From assembly GCA_027325485.1 (NCBI GenBank), contig DAIEFN010000002.1:1-64000 (forward strand): DNA of 64,000 nt, read 5' to 3'. Positions within the stretch are counted from its first letter, which is position 1. Each line of letters begins with the position of its first letter. Below are positions 2,332-43,561 of the stretch, piece after piece. Origin of the DNA: Candidatus Saccharimonadota bacterium. GTDB taxonomy: Bacteria; Patescibacteriota; Saccharimonadia; Saccharimonadales; UBA4665. A program made the position numbers and the translations under genes. Under the pieces are notes generated by a model. That model saw only the letters and a list, made by a program, of their open reading frames with translations, was not told the origin of the DNA and did no database searches.

Positions 2332-3336
2332 ATGACAGCGCTTAATCCTGAGGTGGTTTTATGTCCCGAATCACAAGATAATCAAGATCTACTTGTTTTA
2401 ACACCGAAAGATCAAGATTGGCTGGATTCTTACGGTGTAGATTCTGCGTGGCAAAGCGACACTGCACTTCGACAATCATTGAATGAATTGATTGAACTCG
2501 GTTCATTACGACTCTATAAATCGGTCAACCAAGACAGATGGCTAGATGTTGTTTCAGCACGTATTAGTTTTTTAAACTTCGTTGGGATAGCAGATGACTT
2601 TATTAAAGAATTTCAGACAAATTACCCGACTATTACCCCGTTAGACACATTTATAAGTACGCAGCGAGTTATGCATTCTCTTGGCCTGAACGCTGCTCGG
2701 GTGGTTAACGCTTCACAGGCAGCTATTGGATTAGCTCCAGAATCAGTGCGCGAAAAGATGGCTAACTTAACTGCTCTAGGTCTGGACGCTGCTCAGGTAG
2801 TTAACGCATTCCCAACAGCTATTGGTTATGCTCCAGAATCAGTGCGCGGAAAAATGGCTAACTTAACGGCTCTTGGTCTGGACGCTGCCCGTGTGGTTAA
2901 CGCTACACCGGCAGATATTAGCTTAGCCCCAGAATCAGTACGCGAAAAAATGTTATTCTTGCGTAGTAGCGCTAGACTGCTTCGATGGCAAAACCCTGCA
3001 GAAGAACTGGTTAATGCTTTTCCAGCTTTACTGGGCTATAGTACTAAAAAGCTAGCCATTTTACGTCATATAGCAGCTCGGCATGTAGATTCTACTGAGA
3101 GAACTTCTAGCCCCTTTATGCTACGAAGCAAGCTTATAACTCCTCTTGAGAAATACATTATTGCTATTAGCCGGCTAGAAGATGATCAAGTCCTATCACT
3201 CAGCGAGTTATCAAGAGAAGCTCGTAATATAAAGCTGGACTCATTAGAGAGAAAAGAACTAGCATCTGAAATTGCACCTTCTATGGGTCGTATCGGCACA
3301 ATGTATTTAGATTATCAGGACAGAGCAGCTAGATAG
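2332..3336 (+). CDS. mTERF-like helical repeat protein (copy 1)
   Basis: 334 residues. After an N-terminal domain (LTPKDQDWLDSYGV) come at least three near-identical repeats of about 34 residues: LTALGLDAARVVNA, a short proline-bearing turn, then APESVREKM. A diverged repeat follows (ELVNAFPALLGYS). The pattern helix-GL-helix-x-P-xx-L-helix is that of mitochondrial transcription termination factor (mTERF) repeats, which bind nucleic acid. The larger paralogue at 30922 shares the N-terminal domain, the repeats and the NAFPALLGYS-type cap. TATATT (2318-2323) lies eight bases before the ATG, with no Shine-Dalgarno site. Function in bacteria is unknown. Confidence 0.65.
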   Translation: MTALNPEVVLCPESQDNQDLLVLTPKDQDWLDSYGVDSAWQSDTALRQSLNELIELGSLRLYKSVNQDRWLDVVSARISFLNFVGIADDFIKEFQTNYPTITPLDTFISTQRVMHSLGLNAARVVNASQAAIGLAPESVREKMANLTALGLDAAQVVNAFPTAIGYAPESVRGKMANLTALGLDAARVVNATPADISLAPESVREKMLFLRSSARLLRWQNPAEELVNAFPALLGYSTKKLAILRHIAARHVDSTERTSSPFMLRSKLITPLEKYIIAISRLEDDQVLSLSELSREARNIKLDSLERKELASEIAPSMGRIGTMYLDYQDRAAR

Positions 3337-30921: not shown

Positions 30922-32436
30922 ATGTACTCGCCTGAGGTGGTTGGCTCTAAAGAAATTAAACCTGACTTTCATTTCGTTTTAGCGGATACGGAATGGCTGG
31001 CGAGGCTTGGCTATAGTTGGCCGGAAGAAGATACGCAAGCTGGCTTAAACTACCTAGAAAATGTGCTGAGCATCGCCTCAACACCACCTAACCCATATAG
31101 CTCTACACAATCTGATAATCTTCAGTCCATAATTGCTCGGAATGAATTCATTAATGGTCTAACTAACCTCGAAGATTACCATAAACACAAACTGATTGAA
31201 CGACCGGATTTAGTTATCTCGCTCGGTTCAGTTATTGGCACCCAGCGCATCCTGCATGATTTAGATATCGATAATCAGCGCGTGATGCGCGCTTTCCCGG
31301 CCATCTTAAGTCTCAAGCCGGAAGTTTTGAAAGCTCAATTAGATAACCTAACGACAATCGGGATTAAGCCACGCCGAGTAATTAATCTCTACGCTCCAGT
31401 TCTTGATTTGGCACCAGAAGAGATTAACTTTAGGATTGAGACAATCAATAGCCTGGGGCTAAATGCCTTAAAAGTAATTAACATCTTCCCACAGATACTT
31501 GGCATGCAGCGCGACACGATTAAAGCCCGGATGGCTAACCTAAGTAAACAAGGGTTAGATGATCATAAACTAGTCCATAGCGACAGCTTTATCCTGCGTT
31601 ATCCAACTGAAGCCATTAATGCCAAGCTGAAATTTATTAAGAACATGGGGCTAGATATGCCTCGAGTCGTTAATGTCTTCCCAACTACTTTAAGCTACGC
31701 CTTCTCAACCCTTAAACTAAAGTTTGATAACCTGACCGAACTAGGCTTAGACGCCGTTAACTGCATCGATAATAACCCCGCCATTTTTAGTTTAGCTCCT
31801 GAAACCGTAAAGAGTCGCTTTGAGCATTTAACGCGGCTGGGTCTAAATGCCGTCGTGGTTGCAAACCACAATCCTAGCATCTTTAGCAAAAGTGAAGATT
31901 TAATTGAGTCTAAAATTAATAATCTCACGGCCTTAGGTCTGAATGCCGTAAAGATAGTTAATACGCGTCCAGTCATTTTAAATCCACCACCCGAGACGAT
32001 CAAAGCTAAGCTTAGAGTGCTCTACGGTGCAAGCCGGGCCTGGGGCTTGAGAAATTACAAGAGCCCAGTTAACCATTTCGTTGAAAGTTATCCGGCGTTA
32101 TTAGGCTATAGCTCAGATCGCAACCGGGTTTTAATTCGGATTTTAAATAATAGTCTCGATCCGCACACCCACATCACACTCCATCAGATACGCTCACTAA
32201 CTAGTAATAATCTTGAGGCAACTCTTGCGGCCTATTTGAAACAAGATAAAGAGTCTAGCTCGATAGAGCAAATATCTGAGCAGAGCCGAGTTTTGTATGA
32301 ACTTGGCTATCAGGCACTACAAAATTTAATCCTTGCTCCAGAGCATGCTAATGATTCGGCCGTAAACGTCTACCAGCGCAGTTTAGCGCGCAGGGCTAGC
32401 ATTGCTAAGCACCACCAAAGTTATCACACTCACTAG
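30922..32436 (+). CDS. mTERF-like helical repeat protein (copy 2)
   Basis: 504 residues. After an N-terminal helical region (LADTEWLARLGYSW), about eight repeats of 34-36 residues follow. Each has the form LTxLGLNAVKIVNxxPxIxxxxPETIKAKL, with the conserved Gly-Leu, a Pro in the middle and a final basic helix. A cap (VESYPALLGYS) and C-terminal helices follow. This is the mTERF repeat pattern: tandem three-helix units forming a nucleic-acid-binding solenoid. It is a paralogue of 2332-3336. The PafA/Dop-like gene follows after 48 bases on the same strand. Confidence 0.7.
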   Translation: MYSPEVVGSKEIKPDFHFVLADTEWLARLGYSWPEEDTQAGLNYLENVLSIASTPPNPYSSTQSDNLQSIIARNEFINGLTNLEDYHKHKLIERPDLVISLGSVIGTQRILHDLDIDNQRVMRAFPAILSLKPEVLKAQLDNLTTIGIKPRRVINLYAPVLDLAPEEINFRIETINSLGLNALKVINIFPQILGMQRDTIKARMANLSKQGLDDHKLVHSDSFILRYPTEAINAKLKFIKNMGLDMPRVVNVFPTTLSYAFSTLKLKFDNLTELGLDAVNCIDNNPAIFSLAPETVKSRFEHLTRLGLNAVVVANHNPSIFSKSEDLIESKINNLTALGLNAVKIVNTRPVILNPPPETIKAKLRVLYGASRAWGLRNYKSPVNHFVESYPALLGYSSDRNRVLIRILNNSLDPHTHITLHQIRSLTSNNLEATLAAYLKQDKESSSIEQISEQSRVLYELGYQALQNLILAPEHANDSAVNVYQRSLARRASIAKHHQSYHTH

Positions 32437-33874: not shown

Positions 33875-35632
33875 TTAGTTTTTCTTGGAACGCCAGATTA
33901 GGCGATGCACTGGAACGAGCTTAGGAACATCTCTAATTCCGGGAATAAACGGCACCGCGAGTAAGAGCGCCGTAGCAAGCGTCGTTAAGTAAATTGCAAT
34001 TAAGTCGACATTGGGCGAGTGTGAGAATGCCGGTATCTGATACCAGAGGGTGTACAGCCAGAGCCACGGTTGACCTGGATATGAGCCAGTTTCGTTCATT
34101 ACGCCCCACTGGTTGCCTTTTAGATGCTGTGCTCCAGCAAGCGAAGAGAAGTAGCTACCATCTTCAATAAAGAGGAGCGGTTTAGTGTAGTTTGTGCCAT
34201 AAAAAGGTTGCTGTGAAAGAAGGCTGGTATCGATTGCCCCGCTTTGTGCAAAGGCTAACTCATTAGCGGCTAAAATCGGTACTGGACCATCATTAGCTTT
34301 AGGCACAATTGGTTGTTGGGACTTAAAGCTAACGTTGGTAACAGCTCTCAAGTAGGCCTGATCCCAAGCTTTCTGCTGGGTAGCTGACGCATTGTTATAT
34401 TGCGCGAGGGCATTTATTAATTTCGTGTTGCCTGGAGCTAGGGAAGTAAGTGGCGCAAGGACGAAAGTTTGAGCGGCATTTATCTTCTGGTGTACACCAC
34501 CGAGCATTTGCCAGGATACGCCCAGCTTCTGTAAGTTCGAGGAGCCATTATTATACGGTGGTCCGTAATTAGCAGTTTCGCTAGTTCCGGCTAGTTCACT
34601 GACAGTGGTTGCGAGGAAGTCTGCCGGGGCAGTTTTAGACCAACTTGCAACAGTGACTGGCGGGTCGTCAGGAGAAGACAAGGTTGCAGATAAGCCAATA
34701 ACGAGCAGGAAAACAATCAGGCTCGCAATGGTGCCTTCTTTTATAATGTCATACTCACGCGTTGTGCCACGCCAATGGGCGGCCTCTGCTTCTTTTAGAG
34801 CTTTACGTTCAGCCCGTCCATGCGCCTTTTGAATTGGGTGCGATACGCCACGCACTCTAACTAGTGCAATATGAATCAGTACGAATGAAGCTAGACCAAT
34901 TGGCAGCAGTATGACGTGCCAGGAAATCATCTGTCCGAAGTTAGTTAGATTAAAGAAAGAGCCCAGTCCGGTAGCATTAATGGCGTCCTTGCCATTAGTG
35001 GCAATCCACTGTGAGTCAAAATTCTGCTGCGATAAATAACCAGTAAACGATTCAAGTATCGATAGCCCAAAAGCGAGACCACCAGTGATCCATGTTAGAG
35101 CGCGCTTTCCTCTCCAGGCGGCCATCCAAAACTTACCCCATAAATGAATCACCATAAAGGCCATAAAGAGTTCGACGCTCCAAAGATGCATACTGTTTAC
35201 GAAGTGTCCAAGTGAACTTTCGTGCCACCAAGAAAGGCCGCCAATAGCTAGCACAATACCTGATAGAACTACCATACCGAGAGCTGCTAGAGTGGCGACG
35301 CCAAAAACATAGATCCATGAAGCAACATAGGCTGGCTGTCGATCAGGGAGGAGTTTATGCGGCGGCAAAACTTTAAGCATAAAGTTGCGCACCCGCGCAG
35401 TCCACATATTCTTAAATCGGGGATCAGTCGGATAGTGATCAGTAGCGTCTTCTTCTTCTGGTGGTAAGGTGCCCTTGGCTTTTGGGAATGGCAGCAGTAG
35501 TGCCAGTCCGAAAATAACAACCATCGTCGCAATAACGACCAGGTTTGCAATTGAGATACTGATGAAAGACCAGTTGAGGTAAGTTTGGCTGTGGTTAAGA
35601 TTCACAAGCGCGCCGAAGATACCGTTGCTCAT
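33875..35632 (-). CDS. Cytochrome b (b6-type N-terminal domain) with large extra C-terminal domain
   Basis: 585 residues. The four-helix haem domain keeps all ligands: His149 and His163 (NSMHLW to VIHLW, 14 apart) and His239 and His254 (SWHVIL to LIHIAL, 15 apart), the spacing of cytochrome b6. FTGYLSQQNFDSQW lies before the last pair. A long extracytoplasmic region (about 320-540) of unknown fold follows, then a final membrane helix. No Rieske, cytochrome c or oxidase gene lies nearby. TAAACT six bases before the ATG suggests a leaderless mRNA. Confidence 0.85.
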   Translation of the reverse strand: MSNGIFGALVNLNHSQTYLNWSFISISIANLVVIATMVVIFGLALLLPFPKAKGTLPPEEEDATDHYPTDPRFKNMWTARVRNFMLKVLPPHKLLPDRQPAYVASWIYVFGVATLAALGMVVLSGIVLAIGGLSWWHESSLGHFVNSMHLWSVELFMAFMVIHLWGKFWMAAWRGKRALTWITGGLAFGLSILESFTGYLSQQNFDSQWIATNGKDAINATGLGSFFNLTNFGQMISWHVILLPIGLASFVLIHIALVRVRGVSHPIQKAHGRAERKALKEAEAAHWRGTTREYDIIKEGTIASLIVFLLVIGLSATLSSPDDPPVTVASWSKTAPADFLATTVSELAGTSETANYGPPYNNGSSNLQKLGVSWQMLGGVHQKINAAQTFVLAPLTSLAPGNTKLINALAQYNNASATQQKAWDQAYLRAVTNVSFKSQQPIVPKANDGPVPILAANELAFAQSGAIDTSLLSQQPFYGTNYTKPLLFIEDGSYFSSLAGAQHLKGNQWGVMNETGSYPGQPWLWLYTLWYQIPAFSHSPNVDLIAIYLTTLATALLLAVPFIPGIRDVPKLVPVHRLIWRSKKN

Positions 35633-35670: not shown

Positions 35671-36015
35671 TTAGCTCGCGTAATCGCCGACTTCTGGTAT
35701 TTCAGCAGTTTTAAGACGGCGCATCCGTCTTAGCGTGCTCTGGCTTAAACCGCCCCAAACTCCATAATCTACTTGGTTTTCTAGCGCATAGCGCAGGCAG
35801 TGCATGGTGACAAGACAATTCGCGCAGTGCTGTTGAACTTGCTCGGTAGATGCTCTATCTTCTCGGAAAAATAGATTTGCATCGACGTTACTGCAAGCCT
35901 TAAACTTCAGCCATTCGTAATCTGGCACCCTATGAAGAGTCATTGCTTCATACTTAAGTTCGACCAAACTCGCTTGGTCCATATCTTCCTGTTGATAAGG
36001 TATATTTTCACTCAT
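35671..36015 (-). CDS. WhiB-family iron-sulfur transcription factor
   Basis: 114 residues. The four cluster cysteines are Cys41, Cys64, Cys67 and Cys73 (CSN, then HCANCLVTMHC), followed by the GVWGG turn (85-89) and a basic helix (RRMRRLK). That is a complete WhiB protein, a [4Fe-4S] regulator that senses redox state and works with the main sigma factor. The family is otherwise a mark of Actinobacteria and their phages. It lies 38 bases upstream of the cytochrome b gene on the same strand. Confidence 0.93.
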   Translation of the reverse strand: MSENIPYQQEDMDQASLVELKYEAMTLHRVPDYEWLKFKACSNVDANLFFREDRASTEQVQQHCANCLVTMHCLRYALENQVDYGVWGGLSQSTLRRMRRLKTAEIPEVGDYAS

Positions 36016-40778: not shown

Positions 40779-42302
40779 TCAGGCGTAGCCGGAGAAGAAG
40801 TCAACTTTTATGTTAGCATGACTTAGACCAATCTTCTCAAAGGAGCCGCGCAAGTCTTCAATTAAATTGGGTGGACCAGACACATAGACCATACGCTCAT
40901 TTAGATCTGGCACAAGGTGAGCAATGGTATGGGCATTGAGCCGACTGTTAATAACGTTCTTGAGCCCGCCACTGGCGGCCTTACTCGATATGACGTAGTA
41001 AATGCGGACATTGAGCACTGCCGCTGCTTTGTCTAGAACATCACGGTAAGCAATATATTCAACTGATGAAACGGCATAAAACAAAACAATATTGCGCGCT
41101 TCGTGCTTATCAATTAAATACTTCAGCATGCTTCTAAAGGGGGTGATGCCAATACCGCCGGCAATAAAGACTAGTTTACGTTTTGGGTCACGTGGCAAAG
41201 TGAAATCACCACTTAGTTGGGCGGCGACAATTGTGTCGCCTCGCTCGCTATCGGCCATTGCTTCCTTATAGCTACTGCCCTCCTTGTAAAAACGCACGCC
41301 GACACTTAAATCCGGCTCAGTTGGGGAAGACGCAAGCGTAAAGTAACGCCGTGAGCCACGGCTATCCGTTTTTGTGTGCGGCAAGGTAAATTCCATGTAT
41401 TGTCCTGGCAGGTATTTCAGTGGCTTTTCGGGCGCATAGACGAATTCAGCAATGTCTTTGGCAATTAAGCGTTTTTTAACTAGGACTGGGAATAGTTTGA
41501 CCTTACTGCTGACGATGAACGCAAAGATGTTACCAATTAGCAACGCTGCTTCCGGAGTTGAGTAAATATGGCCAATGTGGAACTGAGGCGCTAAGACGAC
41601 ACCGACAATCGCTGCATAGATAAAACTTTTGCTTTTCCCGTCCGGCGAACTATATGGTTCCGTTAGCATCACAAAGCCAAGGAATAAGACGGCAGAATTA
41701 AGCAACATGTTCTTAAGATCAGTTCCGAGATGCGATCCTAGGTAGAGTGAAAAGGCAGCCGTTGTTACGGTGGTGGCAGCAAGATAGGTCGTAAACATTG
41801 CACCTCGACTTAGCTTGCGAATTAGCATCAAGCCGCCAATGAGCACAAAAGGCATCATTGGAGCAGTCGCCACCCACCAACTAGCTGTCTGGTGCGGGCC
41901 GAATGCCGTTAAGAAGACGGCGACGGCTGCAGGGTTGAAAATATGTTTGTTCTTGTAACTTAGTAGATACTTTGAGCCCATAGCCAGGCCAGAAGCGGCG
42001 AGCAAGAATAACAGGCCAGTACCGGTTGGATCCGGTGGAATGATTAAGGCTAAGATTAGTCCGGTAATGATTGATGACTCAGGATTAATTGGCGCATTAA
42101 AGATTGAGGCCAGCAATTTATTGATCAGGTAGTTAGCTGCGACTAAAATGACGGCCGAAATGGCAATATTAATCGCCGAGAGATGCATGACACCACTGGC
42201 ACTTAAGACAATGGCGGCAATCAGTAAACCAACCAGGTAATACAGAATTAGACGGTACATTGTTACTCGATTCACGAGCCGGTCAAGCATTTTAAGCCAC
42301 AT
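40779..42302 (-). CDS. NqrB/RnfD-like membrane domain fused to ferredoxin-NAD(P)H reductase
   Basis: 507 residues from ATG 42302, overlapping apbE by 11 bases; ATG 42290, one base after the apbE stop, is equally possible. About ten membrane helices carry NqrB/RnfD marks (NKHIFNPAAVAVFL, MLTEPYSSPDGKSK). A flavin reductase follows: FAD site RRYFTLASSP, NAD site GGIGITPFRSML, and YVSGPPNL. I find no SGAT/DGAT flavinylation motif in the membrane part. The fusion could pass electrons from NAD(P)H across the membrane to the adjacent flavoprotein. Confidence 0.85.
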   Translation of the reverse strand: MWLKMLDRLVNRVTMYRLILYYLVGLLIAAIVLSASGVMHLSAINIAISAVILVAANYLINKLLASIFNAPINPESSIITGLILALIIPPDPTGTGLLFLLAASGLAMGSKYLLSYKNKHIFNPAAVAVFLTAFGPHQTASWWVATAPMMPFVLIGGLMLIRKLSRGAMFTTYLAATTVTTAAFSLYLGSHLGTDLKNMLLNSAVLFLGFVMLTEPYSSPDGKSKSFIYAAIVGVVLAPQFHIGHIYSTPEAALLIGNIFAFIVSSKVKLFPVLVKKRLIAKDIAEFVYAPEKPLKYLPGQYMEFTLPHTKTDSRGSRRYFTLASSPTEPDLSVGVRFYKEGSSYKEAMADSERGDTIVAAQLSGDFTLPRDPKRKLVFIAGGIGITPFRSMLKYLIDKHEARNIVLFYAVSSVEYIAYRDVLDKAAAVLNVRIYYVISSKAASGGLKNVINSRLNAHTIAHLVPDLNERMVYVSGPPNLIEDLRGSFEKIGLSHANIKVDFFSGYA

Positions 42303-43029
42303 AACGATTAAACCCTTTCGTAAAAGTTGCTTGCCCTGCCTGATTAATCTGGTAGGCCTCAAAACCAGGCAAGCTAGCGATAAAGTTAATGCCACGTTCT
42401 CCCATGGCGTAGGCGGCGGTTGCAAAGCGGTCGGCTTCAAAGATGTTCGGTCCAATAACACTTAAGCTCACCAGTTGCGCGGGGGCAGCAAAATTATTAA
42501 CTGGGTCATAGATGTGCTCTCCGCGAATGTAGGTACCACTAGTCGCAATGGCCTGTCCATTTAGTTTAATGGTCTTAACGATTTGATTAAGCTCAAACGG
42601 GCTCCGGATACCAACGGCCCACGCTTCATGGTGTTCATTTAAGCCAGCGGTTTGGATGTCGCCGCCAGCCTCGATATAGAAATCGCTGTAGCCAGCACTT
42701 TTTAATAACTTTGCGGCGTTATCGATGGCCCAACCCTTAACTAAGCCTGAGGGATCGAGCGTACCATCCGCTCGTTTAATGTCAAAGAAGCCGCCACTTA
42801 GCTGCTTGGTTTGCTCGCAAAGCTTCATCACTTCGTGCATTGGCTCAGACCAGAGCGTTTTAGCAAGGCCATCATTAACCTTAGCTAGTTCACTTGTTGG
42901 CTTATACGGACTAAAACGCTCGTCTACTTCTTTAAAGTAATTAAAGACTGGCGACAGTGCACTTCTGTCTTGCTTACCGACTAGCTCTACCGTAATCGGC
43001 ATTCCCATGATAATTTTGGTTTGTTTCAC
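42292..43029 (-). CDS. apbE: FAD:protein FMN transferase
   Basis: 245 residues. FSPYKPTSELAKVND, DPSGLVKGWAIDNAAKLL, IEAGGDIQTAG and the Mg-binding end (ADRFATAAYAMGERGINF) are ApbE signatures. ApbE attaches FMN by a phosphoester bond to Thr in an SGATxT-type motif. It lacks an evident signal peptide, though many ApbE proteins act outside the membrane. Its target is almost certainly the SGATFTS protein encoded 13 bases upstream. Confidence 0.93.
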   Translation of the reverse strand: MKQTKIIMGMPITVELVGKQDRSALSPVFNYFKEVDERFSPYKPTSELAKVNDGLAKTLWSEPMHEVMKLCEQTKQLSGGFFDIKRADGTLDPSGLVKGWAIDNAAKLLKSAGYSDFYIEAGGDIQTAGLNEHHEAWAVGIRSPFELNQIVKTIKLNGQAIATSGTYIRGEHIYDPVNNFAAPAQLVSLSVIGPNIFEADRFATAAYAMGERGINFIASLPGFEAYQINQAGQATFTKGFNRYVA

Positions 43030-43042
43030 TTTTAGTTTAGCT

Positions 43043-43561
43043 TTAAGCCTTGTTTAAAGCGGTTTGTAAAGACTGAATGAAGGCTTGAGAGGTGAAGGTA
43101 GCACCGGATATAATTTGAACGTTTGCGTTCTGGGATTGAACTGTTTCCTGTTGCAGGTATGGCATTGCCTGTTGGTTGATATACACCGATGTCGAGTGAG
43201 AGTTTGGGTACTGCAGAAACTTAACGTTTGTAATCTTGCCACTACTAACCGTAACCGCAACTTGAACGTTGCCATAGTAAGCGTCTTCACTATTACCAGT
43301 GTAGGTGCCGTCGCGGTAGCCAGAAGTGGTGCTTGCGGAAGGGCTGCTTGTAGCAGCGTTGCTGCTGCTTGAGGTATTACTCGTAGATGCGGACGTATTC
43401 GCAGCAGAGCTTAAGCTAGCCCCGTTTGAATTAGAACTACTGCCCTGATTCCCGCTAACGAGGGAAGATGGCTTTGCTAATTGCGGCTGTTGATGTCTAA
43501 TGCCGAGCGAGTAAAGTACGTAGATACCTAATACGCCCAGTCCAATGTATGCTTTCTTCAT
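43043..43561 (-). CDS. FMN-carrier protein with membrane anchor and Ser-rich linker
   Basis: 172 residues. An N-terminal membrane helix (KKAYIGLGVLGIYVLYSLG), a linker of about 60 residues very rich in Ser, Ala, Asn and Thr, then an FMN-binding domain (YRDGTYTGNSEDAYYGNVQV) ending in IISGATFTSQAF. SGATFTS (152-158) is the ApbE flavinylation motif, so FMN should be linked to Thr157. It is the first gene of the three-gene flavin locus and the likely outer electron carrier. The linker would let the domain reach away from the membrane. Confidence 0.92.
   Translation of the reverse strand: MKKAYIGLGVLGIYVLYSLGIRHQQPQLAKPSSLVSGNQGSSSNSNGASLSSAANTSASTSNTSSSSNAATSSPSASTTSGYRDGTYTGNSEDAYYGNVQVAVTVSSGKITNVKFLQYPNSHSTSVYINQQAMPYLQQETVQSQNANVQIISGATFTSQAFIQSLQTALNKA

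Follow-up and report, generated by a model that had tools for sequence, protein, structure and literature searches.

The NQR/RNF-like class of flavinylated electron-transfer systems was defined by Méheust et al. in 2021 as PF03116 fused to PF00175, with FMN_bind and/or ApbE encoded within five genes, and its occurrence in CPR genomes was reported in the same study (PMC8238504). In the published model, electrons from NAD(P)H enter by the FNR domain, pass through a single membrane protein and end on an outward flavoprotein (PMC8238504; PMC10979944). That the membrane subunit lacks the flavinylated Thr was described in 2024 (PMC10979944), and a structural model is available for the complex of Ktedonobacter racemifer (PMC10979944 / PMC11334425). 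We found no biochemistry of this class in the literature searched.

The locus described here shares with the NQR/RNF-like systems the NqrB/RnfD-PF00175 fusion, the anchored FMN_bind carrier, ApbE, the lack of a Thr for covalent flavin and the occurrence in CPR genomes. With Na+-NQR and Rnf, it has homology in common in NqrB/RnfD, in an NqrC/RnfG-type FMN domain and in an NqrF-type reductase, but the reductase is fused to NqrB and gave no 2Fe-2S match, and no homologue of NqrA, NqrD/E or RnfA/E was found in the genome. The Listeria-type flavin EET system (Ndh2, DmkA/B, EetA/B, FmnA/B, PplA) also has an outer carrier flavinylated by ApbE, whereas in the system studied here the fused reductase would take the place of Ndh2 and demethylmenaquinone as the point of electron entry.

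Gene arrangement and occurrence in related genomes

The window, i.e., the whole stretch of 64,000 nucleotides that was analysed, belongs to a genome of 620,631 bases on 46 contigs, which is estimated to be 83% complete. Its minus strand carries the genes for an FMN_bind carrier, ApbE and an NqrB/RnfD-FNR fusion protein in this order (40779-43561):

43043..43561, minus strand: FMN carrier, 172 aa (FMN_bind PF04205, E 9e-12)
42292..43029, minus strand: ApbE (FAD:protein FMN transferase), 245 aa (PF02424, E 3e-40)
40779..42302, minus strand: NqrB/RnfD-FNR fusion, 507 aa (PF03116 + PF00175)

The earlier note had described three adjacent and overlapping genes, and this was confirmed, with Pfam matches on all three products. 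The carrier gene and apbE are separated by 13 nt, and the ATG of the fusion gene at 42302 overlaps the end of apbE by 11 nt, which fits a single operon. Scans for promoters and terminators gave signals no higher than those of shuffled sequence and within noise. A longer frame of 560 aa for the fusion protein, starting at 42461 and extending back into apbE, was rejected as an artefact of a mechanical start rule; the alignment with the homologues begins at the ATG at 42302, and this likely start yields 507 aa. The operon is flanked by genes for a GalU-type nucleotidyltransferase, a methyltransferase, a phosphoesterase and a DedA-type protein.

The same order of carrier, ApbE and fusion genes was present in 41 of 49 related loci fetched from Saccharibacteria, other Patescibacteria and Ktedonobacteria, and because of this recurrence the arrangement is not due to chance. 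The exceptions were three loci of Ktedonobacteria with carrier and fusion genes but no ApbE between them, three fragments at contig ends (L026, L066, L069) and two distant loci (L070, L071). Counting full-length or long matches, the fusion was detected in 57/93 genomes of the window's family, while PF03116 occurred in 65 of 380 genomes sampled from the phylum, mostly in reading frames of ~500 aa, the length to be expected of the fusion. The window's protein is 44-46% identical to the homologues from K. racemifer. In an unrooted tree of the fusion proteins, in which many inner branches are weak, Saccharibacteria and Ktedonobacteria each fell on one side of a branch and the Ktedonobacteria stood among the rows of other Patescibacteria; no direction of transfer was drawn from it. 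The genes next to the operon vary by lineage, and neither a dedicated acceptor gene nor a terminal reductase was found conserved beside it in the loci compared. The sole recurring neighbours, in some eight Saccharibacteria loci, were genes for a response regulator and a histidine kinase immediately upstream, suggesting that expression is induced.

Several other genes of the window were recorded. Two repeat proteins (2332-3336 and 30922-32436, plus strand), with units such as 'NLTALGLDAARVVNA', look like tandem helical repeats. A lone protein of the cytochrome b N-terminal type (33875-35632, minus strand; PF13631, E 3e-11) is encoded beside a WhiB gene, in a genome in which no haem-copper or bd oxidase was found. 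In another Patescibacteria genome, the FMN carrier gene is immediately preceded, on the same strand, by a similar cytochrome b gene (L049:5188-6735), possibly a partner of the flavin system there. The WhiB-family protein (35671-36015, minus strand, also G000:C9:67-246; PF02467, E 1e-17) comes from a Patescibacteria genome; WhiB was present in 47/93 genomes of the family and, among the control genomes, only in Corynebacterium. WhiB proteins are usually regarded as actinobacterial, so that these genes may have been acquired from actinobacterial hosts.

Fusion protein, carrier and class membership

The reading frame of the fusion protein is open without internal stops and codes for a membrane half (residues ~15-264) and a cytosolic FAD/NAD(P)H half (~273-500). 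Both Pfam matches were above the cut-off, NQR2_RnfD_RnfE (PF03116, E 2e-8) at residues 153-266 and NAD_binding_1 (PF00175, E 1e-14) at the C-terminus, and no profile match to a 2Fe-2S domain was obtained. The motifs RRYFTLASSPTE and GGIGITP are conserved in the homologues. In the AlphaFold2 model (pLDDT 82.6), the FNR half folds confidently, and it resembled the folds of NqrF and flavohaemoglobin reductase in a fold search against the PDB; this search was swamped by the FNR half, and the membrane half is identified by its Pfam and RnfD profile matches. The full flavinylation pattern [ST]GA[TS]x[ST] was absent from the membrane part in all 40 aligned fusions, in line with the previous statement that this part lacks a flavinylation motif of its own.

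The carrier consists of a single N-terminal membrane anchor, a Ser/Thr-rich tether of about 60 residues and a C-terminal FMN_bind domain. Its conserved hydrophobic segment is preceded by Lys-Lys, and anchor and tether are conserved among the homologues, with at least two Lys/Arg residues ahead of the anchor and a Ser/Thr/Pro-rich tether behind it. The nearest solved structure is the covalent-FMN domain 8p2a (E 4.5e-13), derived from the study on SaFMN3 and CbFMN4; for SaFMN3, a homologue of the carrier, a flavin potential of -184 mV and oxidation by O2 were reported (PMC10339131). The match to the PplA model was weak (E 2e-5, 23.8 bits vs. a cut-off of 325).

PF03116 and FMN_bind are each represented by a single protein in the genome, and ApbE by two genes. 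Searches of this 83%-complete genome with the PF03116, PF04205, PF02508 (Rnf-Nqr) and PF05896 (NqrA) profiles gave no second PF03116 or PF04205 protein and no match to the other two. A full Nqr or Rnf complex split across the genome was therefore rejected as far as tested. Such complete sets, which the earlier note had named as counting against its reading, were not found in the sequence available, from which 17% of the genome may be absent.

With an N-terminal PF03116 membrane domain and a C-terminal PF00175 domain in one protein, FMN_bind and ApbE genes both directly adjacent, and a membrane subunit without the NqrB/RnfD flavinylation Thr motif (a feature described in PMC10979944), the locus corresponds to the published class. 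Because of the domain matches on the three proteins, the gene order in the relatives, the fit with the published definition and taxonomy, the sole copies of PF03116 and FMN_bind in the genome, the topology of the carrier and the homologues in K. racemifer, we regard it as very probably a member of the NQR/RNF-like class which exports electrons from NAD(P)H to an outer FMN carrier. The suggestion of a route without the six-subunit Nqr or Rnf complex was essentially right and equals the published model, whereas the novelty claimed for such a compact set in a CPR-type genome did not hold, since it had already been reported in 2021 (PMC8238504).

Flavinylation motif and location of ApbE

The published target motif of ApbE is D-x-x-[S/T]-G-A-[S/T], in which FMN joins the last residue. 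SGATFTS occurs once in the carrier, and because of this position of FMN in the published motif, FMN is predicted to be carried by Thr155 (the Thr of SGAT) and not by Thr157 as proposed before. S/TGAT or S/TGAS was present in all carriers compared. The window's carrier keeps [S/T]GAT but contains Gln149 in place of the Asp; the same replacement was observed in 18/20 Saccharibacteria carriers (Ser and Asn in the remaining two), whereas 21/24 carriers from outside the Saccharibacteria retained the Asp. Despite this difference from other NQR/RNF-like systems, the Saccharibacteria clade still falls within the class. The residue following GAT is Phe or Leu in this clade. Two CPR carriers from outside it (L045, L064) contain SGAS instead of SGAT, which predicts FMN on Ser. 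In published work on the ApbE motif, replacing Asp by Ala changed little in one system tested, and flavinylation of carriers without the Asp is therefore still expected.

In ApbE itself, the catalytic His172 and the metal-site residues Asp200 and Thr204 are invariant among the homologues. The window's enzyme contains no signal peptide or lipobox, and a clear N-terminal hydrophobic segment was absent in 42/42 ApbE homologues. A hidden signal peptide upstream of the window's apbE was rejected, as only 8 in-frame codons precede a stop, and was made unlikely for 33 of 41 homologues with at most 25 in-frame codons upstream. Residues 2-7 form a beta strand which is part of the fold in the predicted model (mean pLDDT 92). 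The literature searched contained neither a discussion of signal-less cognate ApbE in NQR/RNF-like systems nor a mention of the Asp replacement in Saccharibacteria; either may be recorded in figures or supplementary tables to the 2021 and 2024 papers.

The sole evident target of ApbE here is the anchored carrier, which has the features of an outward protein. This leaves three explanations: flavinylation of the carrier precedes its export, ApbE gets out of the cell by a route not recognised here, or the two proteins have been wrongly paired. Given the missing signal peptide of the cognate ApbE, FMN may be attached to the carrier on the cytosolic side. We give this variant somewhat less than an even chance: the signal-less ApbE would act in the cytosol and the carrier would be exported with FMN attached, unlike the usual case of ApbE working outside on exported targets, and an Asp-free recognition motif would be used in the Saccharibacteria branch.

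Alternatively, the cognate ApbE may act on a cytosolic target, with the carrier left empty or flavinylated by another route. A signal-less ApbE of Klebsiella indeed modifies a cytosolic protein (PMC12052999), and the uniform lack of signal peptides, the loss of the motif Asp in the Saccharibacteria clade and the presence of a second ApbE in the genome agree with this. However, no other FMN_bind protein is encoded in the genome, the carrier gene adjoins apbE in 41 loci, the S/TGAT or S/TGAS core is kept throughout, and the second ApbE likewise has no evident signal peptide; we consider a cytosolic target improbable. The locus of this second ApbE, on contig C42 (L076:11363-14769), also codes for an FNR protein with a Pro/Thr-rich tail and for a multi-helix membrane protein that matched no Pfam family, and no FMN_bind target is encoded nearby.

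Proposed electron path, possible acceptors and physiological role

In the proposed path, the C-terminal FNR domain of the fusion protein would oxidise NAD(P)H in the cytosol, as its fold and motifs suggest, and the electrons would cross the membrane via non-covalent flavins in the NqrB/RnfD-like half (after PMC10979944). They would then arrive at FMN on Thr155 of the tethered outer carrier, attached by the co-encoded ApbE according to motif and operon structure, and the carrier would hand them over to an extracytosolic acceptor encoded outside the operon. Counted against this electron export are the missing signal peptide of ApbE, which leaves flavinylation of the exported carrier unexplained, the Gln in place of the motif Asp, and the lack of a terminal reductase conserved beside the operon.

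A reverse flow, from an external reductant via the carrier and the fusion protein to NAD(P)H inside, would also use these components. In Nqr, electrons pass from NqrC to NqrB inward and on to quinone, so the membrane part can conduct in this direction. At -184 mV, however, the potential of the related carrier lies far higher than that of NAD(P)H (about -320 mV), and the genome searches gave no ion-coupling subunit to power such an uphill transfer, which makes the reverse direction highly improbable.

For the outward direction, the potential of SaFMN3 and its reaction with O2 make O2, free flavins and ferric iron plausible sinks, and these are the likeliest acceptors in our analysis. The net effect would be reductant disposal or metal reduction at the cell surface. 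No ion-pumping subunit was found in the genome with the PF02508 and PF05896 profiles, nor haem-copper oxidase (COX1) or cytochrome bd subunit I in its 83%-complete sequence. Nothing found suggests ion pumping, and the "respiratory" role is not supported beyond electron export, as the searches made turned up neither an acceptor nor a link to quinone nor an ion pump.

The same parts may instead serve mainly for iron assimilation or redox protection, by reducing Fe(III), Cu or O2 at the surface, and not for growth-linked respiration. The iron transporter VIT1 is present in six NQR/RNF-like clusters (PMC8238504), and the two-component systems upstream of some Saccharibacteria loci, together with the missing ion-pumping subunit, point the same way. 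The relatives are labelled Candidatus Saccharibacteria, and several carry the site prefixes DBS, WY, TL and MAS, which match the acid-mine-drainage sediments of PMC12153355, a link that rests on names. On the other hand, no iron transporter was recognised among the neighbours of the window's operon. We give this role a chance only slightly short of even.

In CPR genomes from acid mines, FmnB was reported while PplA, EetA and EetB were missing (PMC12153355), and operons of the type found in the window may explain part of these "incomplete EET" calls. The signal-less ApbE raises the question of sidedness, i.e., which face of the membrane sees the flavinylation of the carrier. As a very probable electron exporter of the published type, the window provides a sole-copy example in a reduced genome in which neither COX1 nor a bd oxidase was found, and the module occurs widely within one CPR family.
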